In this document: positions 662 through 6,340 of the stretch, piece by piece
How positions within the stretch are numbered: position 1 is the first letter of the stretch
Layout of the letters: each line of letters starts with the position of its first letter
Program-made: the position numbers and the translations under genes
NCBI RefSeq assembly: GCF_009711165.2
Contig: NZ_WMID02000061.1
Span: 1-10,433 of the forward strand
DNA length: 10,433 nucleotides
Reading direction: 5' to 3'
Origin: Flavobacterium sp. MC2016-06
GTDB lineage: Bacteria; Bacteroidota; Bacteroidia; Flavobacteriales; Flavobacteriaceae
The notes under the pieces: model-generated
Databases searched by the model: none
Seen by the model: the letters and a program-made list of their open reading frames with translations, nothing else
Told to the model about the DNA's origin: nothing

Positions 662-2452
662 TTAGCTCCTTCTGGTCTCTTTTTGATACAGTATTATTTC
701 TTTTTGATGCTGTTTCATCTCTTTTTCGTGCTGCTTCATTTCTTTCTCATATTGTTTCATTTCTTTTTCACGAAGCTTCATATCAATCTGGTATCGTCTC
801 ATGTTTTTTTCATATTCTCGAGTATCACCAGATTTTTGATAAGTATCTTGACTGTATTTTTCCATATCAGCACTGTATTTATCCATTGCCAATTCGTACT
901 TTTTCATTTCTTCACCATAAACGATTTCACGCTGAGACATGATTTCATCCACTTGTTTTTCGTATGCAGTCATATCCGGTTCGTAAGCCTTCATTTTTTT
1001 CTCAAATTCAGACATTTCTTTTTCAAAATTTTTCATGGCCGTTTTGTCCTTTGGGTTTGCAGGTACAACAGGAGGTTTTGGCATTTTAGACCTATTCATT
1101 GCAGGCGGTGCTGGTAAAGCTCCTGACGGAAATGCTGGCGGCGTTGGTGGTGTTGGCGGTACTGGAGATGCTGTAGGATCTTCCTGATCTTCCGCTTGAA
1201 CATCTCTAACAATTATTCGATGATTTTCCATAACCATTGGCTCTTTAGGTTCTCTAGGTCCTCCATCTGTAGTTAAATTGATATTTTTAGATCCATCGTC
1301 CTCTGTTGTAATTACAATACCACAGTCTTTAATAGCTTCATTACCTTCAACTTGAATAGTTTGAGCTTCGTTATCGTCTTTTTTAATAGCTACTTTAATG
1401 CTGATTAATTCATTAGCAGCGTTTCTTTTTACATCAGAAATTACAGCATCGATATTATGATCTGCTTTTAATTTTTCTACAATAGCAGCAAGGTCTTGGT
1501 CTGAGCTGTTTTTATGAATTTTATAAATTTCTTTAAGTTTAATGTCTTTTTTAGCGATTTCCTTCTGACTTTGCTTTTTCTCTTGTGCTATGGTTTTAAT
1601 TTGAAATAAAACCACAAAGACTACAAGTGCTGGAACTATAGCATAATACTTCCAATAGTTTCTCTTTTTTGATTGATTTTTGTTTAACATGACGATTCGT
1701 TTTTTGATTAATGATTGATAAAAATGATTGGTGATTGAAACACAGCTTTCATGCGTTGTAATTTTTAAAAGCGTGTATTGATACGCTTTTTTGTCTGAAA
1801 GTTTTTTGGCAGCTTCGCAGTCGGCAATAAATTCCAGGTTTTGAATAATGGCTTTTTTGTAAAACCAGATTATAGGATTGAACCAAAATAGAATACAAAA
1901 TAATCTGGAAATCAATACATCTATCGTATGATTCTGATCACTGTGTACTTTTTCATGTTCAATAATATTCTCTAATTCTGTGGCACTGTACATTGATGAG
2001 TTGTACACGATATAATCAAAATAAGAGAATGGAGCGATATTTTCGTTAATATCAATAAATTTAAAATCAGCTTGCTGTTGTACTTTCTGTCCTTTTAAAA
2101 CGGAACTTAAACTATAAAAATCAAGAGCAAATTTTATTAGAAATGCACTAAAGCCAATAATATAAACAGCGATTAAAACTAAATTCCAATTGATTTCAAA
2201 TGTTTCTTCTAACGCAATAGTATTTGGTAGGTAAGCCGATGAATAACTAATATTTTGAATTGGAGCAGGATCAACCCAGACAATTTTAGTGTATACTAAT
2301 AAAGGCAGTAGAACCGAGGTTACTAAGCCTAGTAATAAAAACCATCTGTTGCTGTTAAAAAAGGTTTCTTTGCGCAATAATAAAAAATAAGCAAAGTAGA
2401 ACAAAACGATTAAGCCGCTTGATTTTGCGATAAAAATGAAAAGTGCTTCCAT
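662..2452 (-). CDS. BlaR1-like M56 membrane metallopeptidase, copy B (heptad-repeat tail)
   Basis: This 596-residue sensor protease belongs to the BlaR1/MecR1 (M56) family. Such proteins sense an extracytoplasmic signal and trigger inactivation of a partner BlaI repressor. Hydrophobic segments lie near residues 5-27, 36-56, 90-112, 180-198 and 270-286. The zinc site HEKVH is at 166-170, with the likely third ligand E207 in EFIAD. The residue after that motif is Cys212, where copy A has Arg. After the last membrane segment, residues 300-395 match copy A. The tail then differs completely: a Pro-rich stretch (about 426-466), then heptads with an aromatic or His residue and a Met three to four positions apart (476-595), including three near-perfect EKEMKQ(Y/H) units. 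No penicillin-binding sensor domain is visible. The ATG lies six bases after the stop of its BlaI partner. The signal sensed is unknown. Confidence 0.88.
   Translation of the reverse strand: MEALFIFIAKSSGLIVLFYFAYFLLLRKETFFNSNRWFLLLGLVTSVLLPLLVYTKIVWVDPAPIQNISYSSAYLPNTIALEETFEINWNLVLIAVYIIGFSAFLIKFALDFYSLSSVLKGQKVQQQADFKFIDINENIAPFSYFDYIVYNSSMYSATELENIIEHEKVHSDQNHTIDVLISRLFCILFWFNPIIWFYKKAIIQNLEFIADCEAAKKLSDKKAYQYTLLKITTHESCVSITNHFYQSLIKKRIVMLNKNQSKKRNYWKYYAIVPALVVFVVLFQIKTIAQEKKQSQKEIAKKDIKLKEIYKIHKNSSDQDLAAIVEKLKADHNIDAVISDVKRNAANELISIKVAIKKDDNEAQTIQVEGNEAIKDCGIVITTEDDGSKNINLTTDGGPREPKEPMVMENHRIIVRDVQAEDQEDPTASPVPPTPPTPPAFPSGALPAPPAMNRSKMPKPPVVPANPKDKTAMKNFEKEMSEFEKKMKAYEPDMTAYEKQVDEIMSQREIVYGEEMKKYELAMDKYSADMEKYSQDTYQKSGDTREYEKNMRRYQIDMKLREKEMKQYEKEMKQHEKEMKQHQKEIILYQKETRRS
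668..1027 (-). repeat. Heptad-repeat coding region in M56 copy B
   Basis: This stretch encodes residues 476-595, an irregular array of seven-residue units of the form (Y/F/H)-E-K-x-M-K-x. The aromatic position recurs at 476, 483, 490 and 497. After a one-residue slip it recurs at 512, 519, 526, 533, 547, 554, 568, 575, 582 and 589. The most recent-looking units are three 21-bp repeats at 707-769. The period suggests a charged helical or coiled-coil stalk built by tandem duplication. Confidence 0.8.
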
Positions 2453-2458
2453 AAACGA

Positions 2459-2830
2459 TTATTTTATTACTTCTTTTGGATTTTCGATCATAGCTAATAT
2501 TTCGCGTAATTCGGCTGCAGAGATTTTTTCTTCTTTAGCAAAAAACGAAACCATACTTTTATAAGAACTATTAAAATAGTTGTCAATTGCAGTATTCATA
2601 AAGCCATTTCTATACTCTTCAATACTCACAATCGGGTAATATTGATGCGTGTTTCCAAAAGCGTTATGACTCACATATTCTTTCTCCTCAAGATTACGCA
2701 CAATAGTAGAAAGCGTGTTATAATGAGGCTGATCTTCTGTAATCTCTGCCTGAATTTCTTTTACAAAAGCTTTTTTAAGCTTCCATAAAATGTGCATGAT
2801 TTCTTCTTCTTTGTTGGTTAGCTTTTGCAT
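2459..2830 (-). CDS. BlaI/MecI-family repressor, copy B
   Basis: This 123-residue protein is a full-length BlaI/MecI/CopY-type winged-helix repressor. Residues 1-70 form the DNA-binding domain, with the family pattern LTNKEEEIMHILWKLKKAFV and then YNTLSTIVRNLEEKEYV. Residues 80-120 form the dimerisation helices that the cognate protease pathway disrupts. It differs from copy A at only seven of the first 120 residues (26, 51, 54, 68, 72, 75 and 79), then has a different last few residues. The recognition-helix region around 36-48 is identical, so both copies should bind the same operators. Only 26 bases separate it from the upstream M56 gene, with no promoter or operator in the gap, so it is the third gene of one transcript. 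It precedes its M56 partner by six bases. Confidence 0.92.
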   Translation of the reverse strand: MQKLTNKEEEIMHILWKLKKAFVKEIQAEITEDQPHYNTLSTIVRNLEEKEYVSHNAFGNTHQYYPIVSIEEYRNGFMNTAIDNYFNSSYKSMVSFFAKEEKISAAELREILAMIENPKEVIK

Positions 2831-2856
2831 GATTAAAGAGATTTAATTTCTAAAGC

Positions 2857-4488
2857 TTATTTTCTAGTTATAATTTCAATTACACCATTCTTACCTTCAT
2901 CACCATATTTTGCAATTGCATTAGCACCTTTTAATACATTCATGCTTTCAATATCTAGTGATTCAAGATCATCAGTTGTAGTATAATTTGGTAAAACCAC
3001 ACCATCAACGATAATCAACTGTTTCCCAGTATTTTTTTTGTTAGATCTAATTATAACTTTTGGTTTCGCTTCATTATTAGCTATTACAGTAGTAACTTCA
3101 TCACCATTTACATTTGTATTTATACTTATATTAGTATTTACATTACTTTTTACAGTAGTGTTAGAAGTACCATTTACAGTAGTATTTGTTGCAGTGTTTG
3201 TAGTAGTACTTGTATTGTTAGTATCATTAATTTTAGCATCGGTAGTAGTTTTTTGAATTTTTCTAATTTTTACGATTTTTTCTTCTGTGTTCTCGCTATT
3301 ATCATCTGTAACTAAGCTGATTTTTTTAGTTCCATCTTCCTCTGTAGAAACAAGAATACTGCAGCCTTTAATAGCTGTAGAACCTTCTACCTGCATTGCT
3401 TTAGACTGAGTTGTACCATTTTTGATATCAAGTTTAATAGCAGTCAATTCGTTTTCAGAATTTCTTTTTACATCAGAAACAACCAAATCTACATTGTGAT
3501 TTAATTTTAAAGTTTCGGCGATTTGTTTTAATTCTTGATCTGTAGTAGATTTTAGAATTTTAAAAACATCCATTGACTTCATTTTTTCTGAGGTAACTCC
3601 TTTTTCAGCTACCTTTTTTTCGTGTGCAATAACTTCTACTTGAAATAAAAGTACAAATGCAATAAGTGCAGGAATTACTGTATAATACTTCCAGGAATTT
3701 CTCTTTTTTGATTGATTTTTGTTTAACATAATGATTCGTTTTTTGATTAATGATTGATAAAAATGATTGGTAATGGCAACACAATTTTCATGTGTTGTTA
3801 TTTTTAAAAGCGTGTATTGATAGGCTTTTTTATCGGATAACTTTTTAGCAGCTTCGCGGTCTGCAATAAATTCTAAGTTTTGGGAAATTGCTTTTTTATA
3901 AAGCCACACAACCGGATTGAACCAAAACAACATGCAGAATATTCTAGAAATCAATACATCTACCGTATGATTTTGGTCGCTGTGTACTTTTTCGTGCTCA
4001 ATAATATTCTCTAATTCATCTGCTGTGTAAAGTGATGAGTTGTACACTATATAATCAAAATAGGAGAAAGGAGCAATGTTTTCATTAACATCTACAAATT
4101 TAAAATCGGCCTGCTGTTTGATTTTCTGTCCTTTTAAAACCGAATTTAGCTTATAAAAATCCATTGCGAATTTTATTAATAATCCTAACAAAACAATACT
4201 GTAAACAGCCAGAGTTAGATAAAACCAATTGATTTCAAAAGATTCTTTTGCAATGGGCTGGGGAATATAAGTCTGCTGTAAATTTATATTTAGCGATGCC
4301 TCAGAATCAACCCAGATTGTTTTGGTATAAACCCAGAAAGGTAATGCCAAAGAAGTTCCTAAACCAGCTAGTAAAAACCATCTGTTGCTGGTAAAGAACG
4401 TTTCTTTGCGTAATAAAAAATAATAAGCAAAATAAAACACGATTAATAAGCCACTTGATTTTGCGATATAAATGAAAAGTGTTTCCAT
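2857..4488 (-). CDS. BlaR1-like M56 membrane metallopeptidase, copy A (TonB-plug-like tail)
   Basis: This 543-residue protein is the paralogue of copy B and is roughly 80% identical to it by eye from about residue 115 to 290. The start is ATG at 4488. A TTG two codons upstream is possible, but METLF aligns with MEALF of copy B and gives the same six-base gap after blaI. Membrane segments match copy B. The zinc motif HEKVH is at 165-169 with E206 in EFIADREA, the usual arrangement. After a shared domain (about 300-395), an Asn/Thr/Ser-rich linker (about 413-462) leads to a tail containing LIIVDGVVLP, IESMNVLKGANAIAKYGD and GVIEIITRK. That pattern matches TonB-dependent receptor plug domains, here without any barrel. 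I infer that the tail is periplasmic and mediates protein contacts or sensing. The cognate repressor is encoded immediately upstream. Confidence 0.88.
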   Translation of the reverse strand: METLFIYIAKSSGLLIVFYFAYYFLLRKETFFTSNRWFLLAGLGTSLALPFWVYTKTIWVDSEASLNINLQQTYIPQPIAKESFEINWFYLTLAVYSIVLLGLLIKFAMDFYKLNSVLKGQKIKQQADFKFVDVNENIAPFSYFDYIVYNSSLYTADELENIIEHEKVHSDQNHTVDVLISRIFCMLFWFNPVVWLYKKAISQNLEFIADREAAKKLSDKKAYQYTLLKITTHENCVAITNHFYQSLIKKRIIMLNKNQSKKRNSWKYYTVIPALIAFVLLFQVEVIAHEKKVAEKGVTSEKMKSMDVFKILKSTTDQELKQIAETLKLNHNVDLVVSDVKRNSENELTAIKLDIKNGTTQSKAMQVEGSTAIKGCSILVSTEEDGTKKISLVTDDNSENTEEKIVKIRKIQKTTTDAKINDTNNTSTTTNTATNTTVNGTSNTTVKSNVNTNISINTNVNGDEVTTVIANNEAKPKVIIRSNKKNTGKQLIIVDGVVLPNYTTTDDLESLDIESMNVLKGANAIAKYGDEGKNGVIEIITRK

Positions 4489-4494
4489 AGCCAA

Positions 4495-4863
4495 TTATTT
4501 ATCTTCTTTTGGATTTTCGATCATAGCCAGGATTTCGCGTAATTCTGCGGCAGAGATTTTTTCTTCTTTGGCAAAAAACGAAACCATACTTTTATAAGAA
4601 CTATTAAAATAATTATCAATAGCAGTACTCATAAATCCTTTTCTATAATCTTCGATGCTTATAATCGGGTAATATTGATGTGTGTTACCAAAAGCATTAT
4701 GATTTACATATCCTTTTTCTTCAAGATTGCGCACAATTGTAGAAAGTGTATTATAATGCGGTTGATCTTCTGTAATTTCTGCCTGAACTTCTTTTACAAA
4801 AGCTTTTTTTAGCTTCCATAAAATATGCATGATTTCCTCTTCTTTGTTCGTTAGCTTTTGCAT
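4495..4863 (-). CDS. BlaI/MecI-family repressor, copy A
   Basis: This 122-residue winged-helix repressor is the first gene of the four-gene leftward operon. The N-terminal domain carries LTNKEEEIMHILWKLKKAFV and the recognition-helix segment YNTLSTIVRNLEEKGYV. The C-terminal dimerisation region includes NYFNSSYKSMVSFFAKEEKI. In the family, such repressors bind operators as dimers and are inactivated when the BlaR1 partner is activated. The stop codon is six bases before the M56 ATG, the same spacing as in the second cassette. A promoter and three candidate operator boxes lie directly upstream, so autoregulation is likely. It is nearly identical to copy B. Gly51, where copy B has Glu, is the common residue after the recognition helix. 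Target genes outside this operon cannot be seen. Confidence 0.93.
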   Translation of the reverse strand: MQKLTNKEEEIMHILWKLKKAFVKEVQAEITEDQPHYNTLSTIVRNLEEKGYVNHNAFGNTHQYYPIISIEDYRKGFMSTAIDNYFNSSYKSMVSFFAKEEKISAAELREILAMIENPKEDK

Positions 4864-4880: not shown

Positions 4881-4911
4881 CAAACCTACAACTATTTTTT
4901 TAGTTACACAA
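4881..4911 (-). promoter_or_regulatory. Promoter of the BlaI/M56 operon
   Basis: On the minus strand, TTG (4911-4909), a 20-base spacer and TAGGTTTG (4888-4881) match the Bacteroidota promoter consensus TTG-N(17-23)-TAnnTTTG. Transcription should start near 4875, leaving a leader of about 12 bases before the BlaI ATG at 4863. Candidate operator box 1 fills the spacer and box 2 covers the -33 element, so a bound repressor would block the polymerase. Confidence 0.7.
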
Positions 4912-4945
4912 CTATAAAAGCAGTTTGTTAACTAAATTTTTAGTT
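4890..4945. promoter_or_regulatory. Triple phased operator array, probable BlaI sites
   Basis: Three 16-bp boxes of the form AACTA-N6-(T/C)AGTT lie at 4890-4905, 4910-4925 and 4930-4945. Their starts are exactly 20 bp apart, with four-base linkers. Boxes 1 and 3 are perfect inverted half-sites; box 2 has CAGTT in place of TAGTT. Box 3 is the most symmetrical, with AACTAAA and TTTAGTT around a central TT. The spacing is close to two helical turns, so bound dimers would lie on about the same face of the DNA. The link to BlaI is inferred from position over the blaI promoter and from the dyad form of known BlaI-family operators. The half-site differs from the classic TACA/TGTA type. Confidence 0.7.
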
Positions 4946-4992
4946 TTGAAATGATTTTATTGGGCTTTTAGAGTTTGTTTTCTTTTTTTTTT

Positions 4993-5117
4993 GCGTGAGT
5001 GATAGGAGCAAGCTACCAAAGTAGCGCGTATAGCACGACAGCATCCTGATAAAAGGGCGAATATTCATAAAGAGAATAAGCCCTTTTATCAGGATGCTGG
5101 CACGCCCTAATAGGGAT
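4993..5117. repeat. Structured intergenic element, probably a dispersed repeat
   Basis: This GC-richer block contains three palindromic units. A small hairpin, GCTAC-CAAA-GTAGC, lies at 5012-5025. A perfect 20-bp stem is formed by CAGCATCCTGATAAAAGGGC (5039-5058) and its reverse complement (5080-5099), around a 21-base loop that can form a further 5-bp stem (5062-5066 with 5074-5078). A short palindrome, CCCTAATAGGG, lies at 5105-5115. It is downstream of the MFS gene, but neither strand has a T-run after the long stem, so it is not a standard terminator. The architecture resembles REP or MITE-like elements, and the motifs look like repeats I associate with Flavobacterium genomes. Copy number cannot be judged from one window. 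Confidence 0.6.
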
Positions 5118-5122
5118 TGAAA

Positions 5123-6340
5123 TTATTTTTGTACGGTGTGAATCATTTTATTGAGCCAAAAACAGCAAATCAATGAAAATGCGGCTAAAGTTCCCATAAT
5201 AATCCAATTGACTTGATAGTTGTAATGGTCAATGATTTCAAGTCCTGTTTTAGAACTTACTATATGAGCAAGGCTGAAACTCATCGTGTACAACCCCATA
5301 TATTGTCCTTCTTGGCCTTTTGGTGCACGACTTAGGGCAACTGCATTGACAAAAGGGAAAGAAAAGATTTCTCCGAAAGTGAGTAATACAATGCTGATTA
5401 CAAGAATTCCCACCCAGGAATCTAATAGTAAAATATAATATCCTGCAGCAATAAAAAATGATCCTAAAGCAATGTTTTTTATTTTATTAACTCCTTTACG
5501 TTCCAGCATACTAACAATAGGCATCTCTAAAAGAAAAACCAATAAACCGTTTATAGAAAGCAGCATTCCGGTTTGAAATTCACTCAGCCCAAATTTTTCA
5601 TTGTGATATAAAGGTAAAGTTGAAAATATTTGTAGGAAAACCATAAAAGTAATGAAGCTGATAAAAAGCAGTAGCCAAAATGGTTTGTCTTTGTAGATTG
5701 ATTTTGGTAAATCGGCTGCTATAATATTTTCAGGATCTACTGGTTCTTTCTTTTTTTCTTTTATACAAAATGCAAATATTGATATGGCAATCATGCACGT
5801 AATTCCGTCAACCCAAAATAAACCTTGATACCCCATTCCGATGATTATTAATCCACCCAATGCCGGTCCGGCGGTGAATCCTAAATTTACTGCCAGACGA
5901 ACAAGAGATAACGCACGAACTCGGTTTTCGGGTTTAGCGTAAACACTTAAGGAAACAAACATTGCAGGGCGAAACATGTCGGAGATTGCCATAATAACAA
6001 ACATTCCAATACATAATCCCCAGAAGGTAGTAATATATTGCAGTAAGATAAACAGGATTCCGCTCGTAAAAAGACTGAAAATCATTATTTTATAAAATCC
6101 TATTTTATCACTCAATTTGCCTCCAATCCATGAACCTAACATAGACCCAAGACCGAAGAAAACCATAATCCATCCTACTTCGCCATAAGAAAAATGCAAA
6201 TCTTCTTTTAGATATTTAGACAAAAAAGGCAGAACCATAGTTCCAGCCCTATTGATAAAAGTAATTAAAGCAAGAATCCAAACTTCGTGCGTGAATCCTT
6301 TAAAATTATTAATGTAGCGACCTAGAGTAGTTTTTAACAT
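5123..6340 (-). CDS. MFS transporter, DHA1-like drug/solute exporter family
   Basis: This 405-residue protein has about twelve hydrophobic segments in two halves joined by a charged cytoplasmic loop (about 192-218, KEKKKEPVDPENII), typical of major facilitator transporters. The family's motif A is clear between helices 2 and 3 at residues 73-84 (GGKLSDKIGFYK, with Asp78). RAL(S)LVRLAVNLGFTAGPALGG at about 143-164 matches the helix-5 motif C region found in antiporter-type exporters. It acts in the inner membrane, probably as a proton-coupled exporter; the substrate is not predictable. The ATG is preceded by an AT-rich divergent region shared with the DUF1684 gene. It points the same way as the BlaI operon but is separated from it by about 260 bases of promoter and repeat, so it is probably not co-transcribed. 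Confidence 0.88.
   Translation of the reverse strand: MLKTTLGRYINNFKGFTHEVWILALITFINRAGTMVLPFLSKYLKEDLHFSYGEVGWIMVFFGLGSMLGSWIGGKLSDKIGFYKIMIFSLFTSGILFILLQYITTFWGLCIGMFVIMAISDMFRPAMFVSLSVYAKPENRVRALSLVRLAVNLGFTAGPALGGLIIIGMGYQGLFWVDGITCMIAISIFAFCIKEKKKEPVDPENIIAADLPKSIYKDKPFWLLLFISFITFMVFLQIFSTLPLYHNEKFGLSEFQTGMLLSINGLLVFLLEMPIVSMLERKGVNKIKNIALGSFFIAAGYYILLLDSWVGILVISIVLLTFGEIFSFPFVNAVALSRAPKGQEGQYMGLYTMSFSLAHIVSSKTGLEIIDHYNYQVNWIIMGTLAAFSLICCFWLNKMIHTVQK

Follow-up and report, generated by a model that had tools for sequence, protein, structure and literature searches.

Three 16-bp boxes of the form AACTA-N6-TAGTT, repeated at a step of exactly 20 bp, were found over the promoter of a blaI-M56-blaI-M56 operon of Flavobacterium sp. 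MC2016-06. Because this array is conserved across the genus, the family and the class and is tied to blaI, it very likely represents, on comparative sequence grounds, a BlaI autoregulatory operator in a large part of the class Bacteroidia. The same layout recurs in more than 200 related genomes searched, and BlaI-M56 pairs were often encountered among the Bacteroidota genomes covered. Hereafter, the window designates the whole stretch of DNA that was analyzed, i.e., 10,433 nucleotides of contig NZ_WMID02000061.1.

Direct reading of the + strand of the window gave AACTATTTTTTTAGTT for box 1, AACTATAAAAGCAGTT for box 2 and AACTAAATTTTTAGTT for box 3, with a single mismatch to the 16-bp unit, located in box 2, and with the 4-bp linkers ACAC and TGTT (Table 1). 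The box starts at 4890, 4910 and 4930 and the 20-bp step, announced in an earlier note on this DNA, are borne out by this reading. On the - strand, the -33 TTG is followed by a 20-bp spacer (4908-4889), by TAGGTTTG and by the ATG of blaI (4863-4861). The Bacteroidetes -7/-33 consensus is TAnnTTTG/TTTG, as quoted in an excerpt of PMC2483708. As the earlier note had it, box 1 lies within the spacer and box 3 directly upstream of box 2 and the -33 region; box 2, which it placed over the -33 TTG, covers the TT only, the G being a linker base. The promoter of this repressor operon is associated with a dyad-symmetric site of about 16 bp, as expected of a BlaI/MecI/CopY-type operator.

Table 1. Positions in the window of the promoter elements, boxes and genes of the blaI-M56 operon
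Feature	Position	Strand	Basis
-7 element TAGGTTTG, begins 1 bp past box 1	4881..4888	-	direct reading
Box 1, AACTA-N6-TAGTT, within the -33/-7 spacer	4890..4905	-	direct reading
-33 element TTG, Bacteroidetes-type promoter	4909..4911	-	direct reading
Box 2, overlapping the -33 TTG, one mismatch, AACTGcttttaTAGTT on the - strand	4910..4925	-	direct reading
Box 3, upstream box	4930..4945	-	direct reading and motif scan
blaI copy B, 122 aa, Penicillinase_R PF03965 (E 1.5e-30)	4495..4863	-	domain scan
BlaR-like M56 metallopeptidase, HEKVH, weak TonB-plug match	2857..4494	-	domain scan
blaI copy A, tandem duplicate	2459..2830	-	domain scan
Second M56 metallopeptidase of the duplicated unit	662..2452	-	domain scan

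The genes of the operon follow in the order blaI copy B, M56 peptidase, blaI copy A and M56 peptidase. The repressor is a MecI/BlaI homologue (match to the MecI chain 1sd6, E 1.5e-8) whose BlaI fold and family are not in doubt, and the recognition-helix segment HYNTLSTIV is common to copies A and B. Both M56 proteins contain PF05569 and, as in the classical BlaI-BlaR1 system, an M56 gene adjoins blaI. A penicillin-sensor domain was not detected on the M56 protein at E values up to 0.001, where the M56 domain and a plug match below cut-off were the only matches; hence, the classical induction route may not apply. No beta-lactamase or PBP gene was seen among the ORFs of the window, five of which were domain-scanned. 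In the region 662-4863, the blaI-M56 unit is duplicated in tandem and preceded by a single putative operator, and no boxes were found in the 26 bp preceding copy A. Unlike classical BlaR1, the first M56 protein (2857-4494) carries a C-terminal stretch weakly resembling a TonB plug (E 0.00047, below the Pfam cut-off).

A BlaI protein search matched 77 of 101 Flavobacterium genomes. From the 115 listed genus matches that were used (100 and 15 more), second copies of tandem blaI-M56 units, which made up 17 of the 100 matches first taken, were set aside and 98 upstream regions were fetched: 74 orthologue-like ones (52-100% identity, L046-L119), 8 of the C10 type (L120-L127) and 16 more distant ones (L128-L143). 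With a threshold of at most 4 mismatches over the 20 half-site letters of the proximal pair, boxes 1 and 2 were kept at 20 bp in 72 of the 74 orthologue upstreams; the two missing the pair (L088 and L106) are both close to contig ends and offered 43 and 105 bp of upstream sequence. Among these 72 upstreams, the left and right half-sites were exact in 70 and 72 for box 1, in 68 each for box 2, and in 28 and 62 for box 3, the latter being recovered in 63 with no more than 2 mismatches. A -7 element TAnnTT(T/G), 1 bp after box 1, was present in 66/72. In boxes 1 and 2, the C and G form the most conserved columns of the array; the A-rich N6 of box 1 and the linker AAAT between boxes 3 and 2 (77-85% per column) are fairly conserved, the N6 segments are about 96% A+T, and the flank upstream of box 3 drifts. 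When spacing was left free in the 74 upstreams, the distance between boxes was 20 bp in 126 cases, 40 bp in 54 and another value in 3, and the reversed sequences gave none. At the scale of the genus genomes, 95 exact 20-bp pairs were found in 66/101 genomes against 1 for the reversed pattern, and pairs with any gap from 0 to 30 numbered 107 against 33 reversed (hand-summed counts). Of the 12 pairs added by the free gap, 10 were listed, six being 40-bp spans over a degenerate middle box and four falling at other distances. The triple is also carried by all 76 named close relatives (87-99% identity), which are partly the same genomes as the genus set.

Because pattern searches select their own hits, family loci were also chosen by protein match. 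This search matched 47 of 60 genomes, and its best 29 matches outside the own genome (29 genera, 63-80% identity) were retained. The pair was present in 26 of them (at most 3 mismatches of 20) and a third box in 22. In two of the three misses (L324 and L330), blaI stands behind a PF00144 gene; in L330 the pair lies in front of this gene, at 3314, and the L324 stretch ends before that region. The third miss, L346, has blaI and no clear array. The alignment check that the earlier note had proposed thus returned conserved boxes and a conserved 20-bp period in both the genus (72/74) and the family (26/29), and loss of the boxes beside a retained gene, which that note held to be damaging, was not the pattern found in these two sets. 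Such conservation supports its proposal of a variant BlaI operator whose boxes are phased at a fixed 20 bp; its suggestion that the variant may be proper to Flavobacterium is contradicted by the distribution of the exact pair: among 154 genomes of the class that belong to other orders, 21 carry it, from 13 further families (counted from rows).

In the family, the exact tandem pair was detected in 134 of 299 genomes, corresponding to 115 of 236 genera, while 165 genomes were without it and the reversed pattern gave 0. The class draw yielded 23 genomes with an exact pair and 136 without, out of 159, the reversed pattern being found once. In a phylum draw of 80 genomes, the 7 with a pair were all inside the class, and none of the 61 outside the class had one (counted from rows). 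All 22 pair loci fetched from the class sample were at blaI, one being Flavobacterium and one (L303) having an intervening gene. By eye, the promoters of the class sample are mostly two-box; hence, the common form seems to consist of two phased boxes on the core promoter, to which a third would have been added in Flavobacteriaceae, as a proposed order of events.

The genes behind the pair were then considered. Among the best-scoring 60 pair loci of the genus and family, 57 were at blaI-M56 genes, one small gene being intercalated in L183 and L189. Together with the 22/22 of the class sample, the pair was at blaI in 79 of the 82 best-scoring loci examined, which suggests a mainly self-regulating system here. 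In L174 the pair precedes a putative esterase gene, which may be a true extra target. L176 was discarded as a target, being a perfect hairpin between two genes that was read by eye as a terminator. L187 is the front of an operon in which a gene of the PF00144 beta-lactamase family comes first, an unknown gene second, and blaI and M56 last; three boxes stand ahead of the PF00144 gene. In G255, G108 and G138, three genomes from other genera, blaI is preceded by a PF00144 gene, which has the pair in front of it in G255 and G108. PF00144 genes before blaI-M56 or behind phased boxes were noticed in L312, L319, L324 and L330, all from other genera. The simplest reading of these targets is autoregulation with the occasional capture of a hydrolase gene. 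In practice, the 34-bp pair pattern makes such blaI promoters easy to find and flags extra targets, such as the PF00144 serine-hydrolase genes of other genera.

Single boxes with at most 2 mismatches were not enriched in the window (39 found vs. 35.95 expected in shuffles), and the 20-bp pair with at most 1 mismatch per box appeared in 0/500 dinucleotide shuffles of the window: it is the phased array, not the single boxes, that exceeds chance. In the 6.17-Mb own genome, a tandem pair with at most 1 mismatch was found only at the promoter of the window and at the blaI paralogue on contig C10, and pairs with at most 3 mismatches were not enriched (29 vs. 48 for the reversed pattern). This genome contains nine perfect AACTA-N6-TAGTT sites, the reversed pattern reaching 44. 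Three of the nine are in the window, two in the promoter and one inside blaI copy A. The six others, five within ORFs and one at an ORF end, were rejected as targets. The genome scan by which the earlier note had hoped to find a regulon hence gave no wider regulon, and neither the pair scan nor the perfect single-box scan found further targets in the own genome. The perfect site in the coding region of copy A (2566-2581) was read as a coding coincidence, and its counterpart in copy B (4599-4614) has one mismatch.

The boxes, promoter register, conservation and close blaI link observed here would be well explained if the array were the autoregulatory operator of the blaI-M56-blaI-M56 operon, acting through occlusion by dimers and release by M56, a reading of binding, repression and dimer contact that we consider highly probable. 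Each 16-bp box would bind one BlaI dimer, which could consist of copy A, of copy B or of both since the DNA-reading segment is identical in the two copies. Two dimers would cover the core promoter, one on box 1 between -33 and -7 and the other on box 2 at the -33 element, thereby barring RNA polymerase from the promoter, and a third dimer on box 3 would strengthen the block. With a 20-bp step of about 1.9 helical turns, the dimers would sit side by side on nearly one face of the DNA, probably touching. Cooperative binding of three dimers may occur and would fit the invariant spacing; the independent binding of CopY to its paired sites is a warning against assuming it. On a signal, the membrane M56 protease would be expected to inactivate BlaI, presumably by proteolysis, and to open the promoter. 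The best-supported account is one in which two dimers would occlude the core promoter, a third would help them and M56 would bring about release. The poor retention of the distal half of box 3 (28/72 exact) counts against it, as do the 165 family and 136 class-draw genomes lacking an exact pair, the L346 locus, and the M56 protein in which no penicillin-sensor domain was detected.

This asymmetry of box 3 bears on an alternative that we regard as unlikely, in which the true dimer site would be a 14-bp dyad across the linkers, TAGTT-N4-AACTA, the AACTA-N6-TAGTT boxes being only apparent units. Indeed, this dyad is perfect in the window (TAGTT-ACAC-AACTA), the linker-side half of box 3 is kept in 62/72 upstreams against 28/72 for the outer half, and the linker between boxes 3 and 2 is among the fairly conserved parts of the array. 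However, the best kept half-site, the right half of box 1 (72/72), is without an N4 partner, even if it also abuts the -7 element; moreover, apart from a few, the two-box promoters of the class sample open on AACTA and close on TAGTT (by eye), and the 16-bp frame is that of the CopY site RNYKACANNTGTMRNY given in the consulted section of PMC7253601.

As BlaI binding is deduced here from sequence, a transcription factor other than BlaI might instead bind the array. The location of 79/82 of the best-scoring pair loci examined at blaI genes, together with the changed boxes of paralogous blaI genes at the same 20-bp step, makes this very improbable. Hardly credible at all is an A-tract or curvature element, or low-complexity chance, in place of a protein site: the A+T content of the N6 segments, the conserved A-rich N6 of box 1 and a step near two helical turns would suit such an element, but in boxes 1 and 2 it is the C and G that are most conserved, and the flank upstream of box 3 drifts, while chance is countered by the absence of the pair from 500 shuffles and of the reversed pattern from the family. 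Conservation can thus be taken to have largely refuted this reading already. An RNA hairpin was rejected because the boxes are upstream of the transcript start expected from the -7 element; an Rfam scan of the window gave no matches at gathering scores.

The proposed BlaI operator shares features with several known operators. The MecI/BlaI consensus of staphylococci and Bacillus, [A/G]NATTACA[A/T]NTGTA[A/G][T/G]NT (quoted in an extract of PMC5341023), is likewise a dyad site of a PF03965-type repressor overlapping the promoters of its own regulatory operon, and its outer positions agree in one 16-bp frame with those of the AACTA boxes (by eye), which lack the inner CA/TG. The OP1 oligo and the OP1-OP3 operators are given in the portion of PMC3305447 consulted, according to which B. 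licheniformis also has three operators; these lie between two divergent operons, whereas here three tandem boxes at exactly 20 bp serve one promoter. A common 16-bp frame is also found with the CopY/CopR cop operator, RNYKACANNTGTMRNY, whose outer five positions per side are satisfied by AACTA and TAGTT. Of its 12 specified positions, boxes 1, 2 and 3 agree at 9, 9 and 10, position 6 (C) being matched in none (by eye). However, its ACA/TGT core is absent from the AACTA boxes, as is the inner TACANNTGTA core from all three boxes, and CopY spacing is wider: two operators are usual (67/88 sequences), sites are mostly 24-39 bases apart with a mode of 26, and pneumococcal CopY binds two sites without cooperativity (same section of PMC7253601). 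The half-site, which had been described as different from the classical TACA/TGTA type, does lack the inner CA/TG but keeps the outer RNYKACANNTGTMRNY positions.

Half-sites resembling AACTA are found in Clostridium thermocellum, where, in the accessible text of PMC8457756, BlaI_1845 and BlaI_0696 have GACTAT/GTCTAT half-sites in ordered inverted-repeat pairs, two of them upstream of the blaI operon, and small regulons with self-regulation. This organism belongs to another phylum, its half-sites have another outer base and form two pairs instead of three, those of BlaI_0696 are five apart, and no 20-bp step was found in that text. ACTA-type half-sites therefore have a precedent; a strict 20-bp array and its class-wide use were not found described. 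Within the accessible part of the open-licence literature, no described operator was found for Bacteroidota BlaI-M56 pairs, the available text of PMC2658668 contained no MecI operator sequence and a term search of that of PMC12596196 did not return BlaI.

Other BlaI systems of the own genome are preceded by different boxes. The paralogue on contig C10 (43% identity) has TACTA/CACTA-type boxes at the same 20-bp step, and at least two boxes were present in 8/8 C10-type upstreams. The operon of the C2 paralogue begins behind CTCTACATTTGTAGAA and an imperfect copy of it (by eye), of the classical type. In this third BlaI-M56 system (L004, 820-1000), a classical CTACATTTGTAG site is seen by eye before a small lipoprotein-like gene that precedes blaI. 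The other boxes (TACTA-type; CTACATTTGTAG) and other recognition helices of these paralogues suggest insulated regulators, and such paralogues within one genome lend themselves naturally to testing how DNA is read by a helix of the MecI type. Among the 16 more distant upstreams (320 bp taken from each), exact ACTA-N6-TAGT occurred in none, two TCTACATTTGTAGA sites were found in one (L141), and no operator was found in the remaining ones.

A table was drawn up of 133 distinct promoter-protein pairs. Where helix position 41 is S, the outer base is A in 127 and the box mixed in 1; where this position is A, the outer base is T in 4 and the box again mixed in 1. Left out of this table were 64 BlaI-like ORFs (63 having S and 1 having A) whose 260 bp of upstream sequence contained no pair; many of them should be second tandem copies. 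In the HMMER alignment, S41 of the window is opposite the arginine of MecI KTIRT. The link was noticed post hoc, was not planned and concerns few lineages; because the A type comes from few lineages and the C2 type has A without TACTA boxes, it is a lead and not a proof. Insulated BlaI codes in Bacteroidia, in which the helix would set the outer base (S for AACTA, A for TACTA), a third paralogue would keep the classical CTACANNTGTAG and cross-talk would be avoided, are accordingly a tentative idea, with chances somewhat below even. If true, several BlaI-M56 systems could operate side by side in a single cell. Only 3/120 family genomes contain the exact TACTA-type pair, which is rare. A TACTA-type pair also precedes a TonB_C gene near blaI in G159, and a TonB_C gene followed by a PF00144 gene in G177. 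Weak PF03965 matches were obtained on contigs C15 and C30 of the own genome (28 and 30 bits). The C15 gene was rejected as BlaI, since it looks by eye like a MarR-type OhrR beside an OsmC-like gene.

Finally, the region 4990-5125 of the window holds a REP-like element with a perfect 20-nt inverted repeat (5039-5058/5080-5099), and related copies with 72-87% identity recur at five further sites in the genome (C20, C39, C2, C13, where it is partial, and C4). By eye, the element of the window is related to one of the GCGTTA(A/G)GG...AACGCCC type that separates the blaI array from the ATG in 6 of the 74 genus upstreams (L067, L071, L074, L075, L079 and L084) and in L179 outside the genus; in this position, the element would be part of the mRNA leader.
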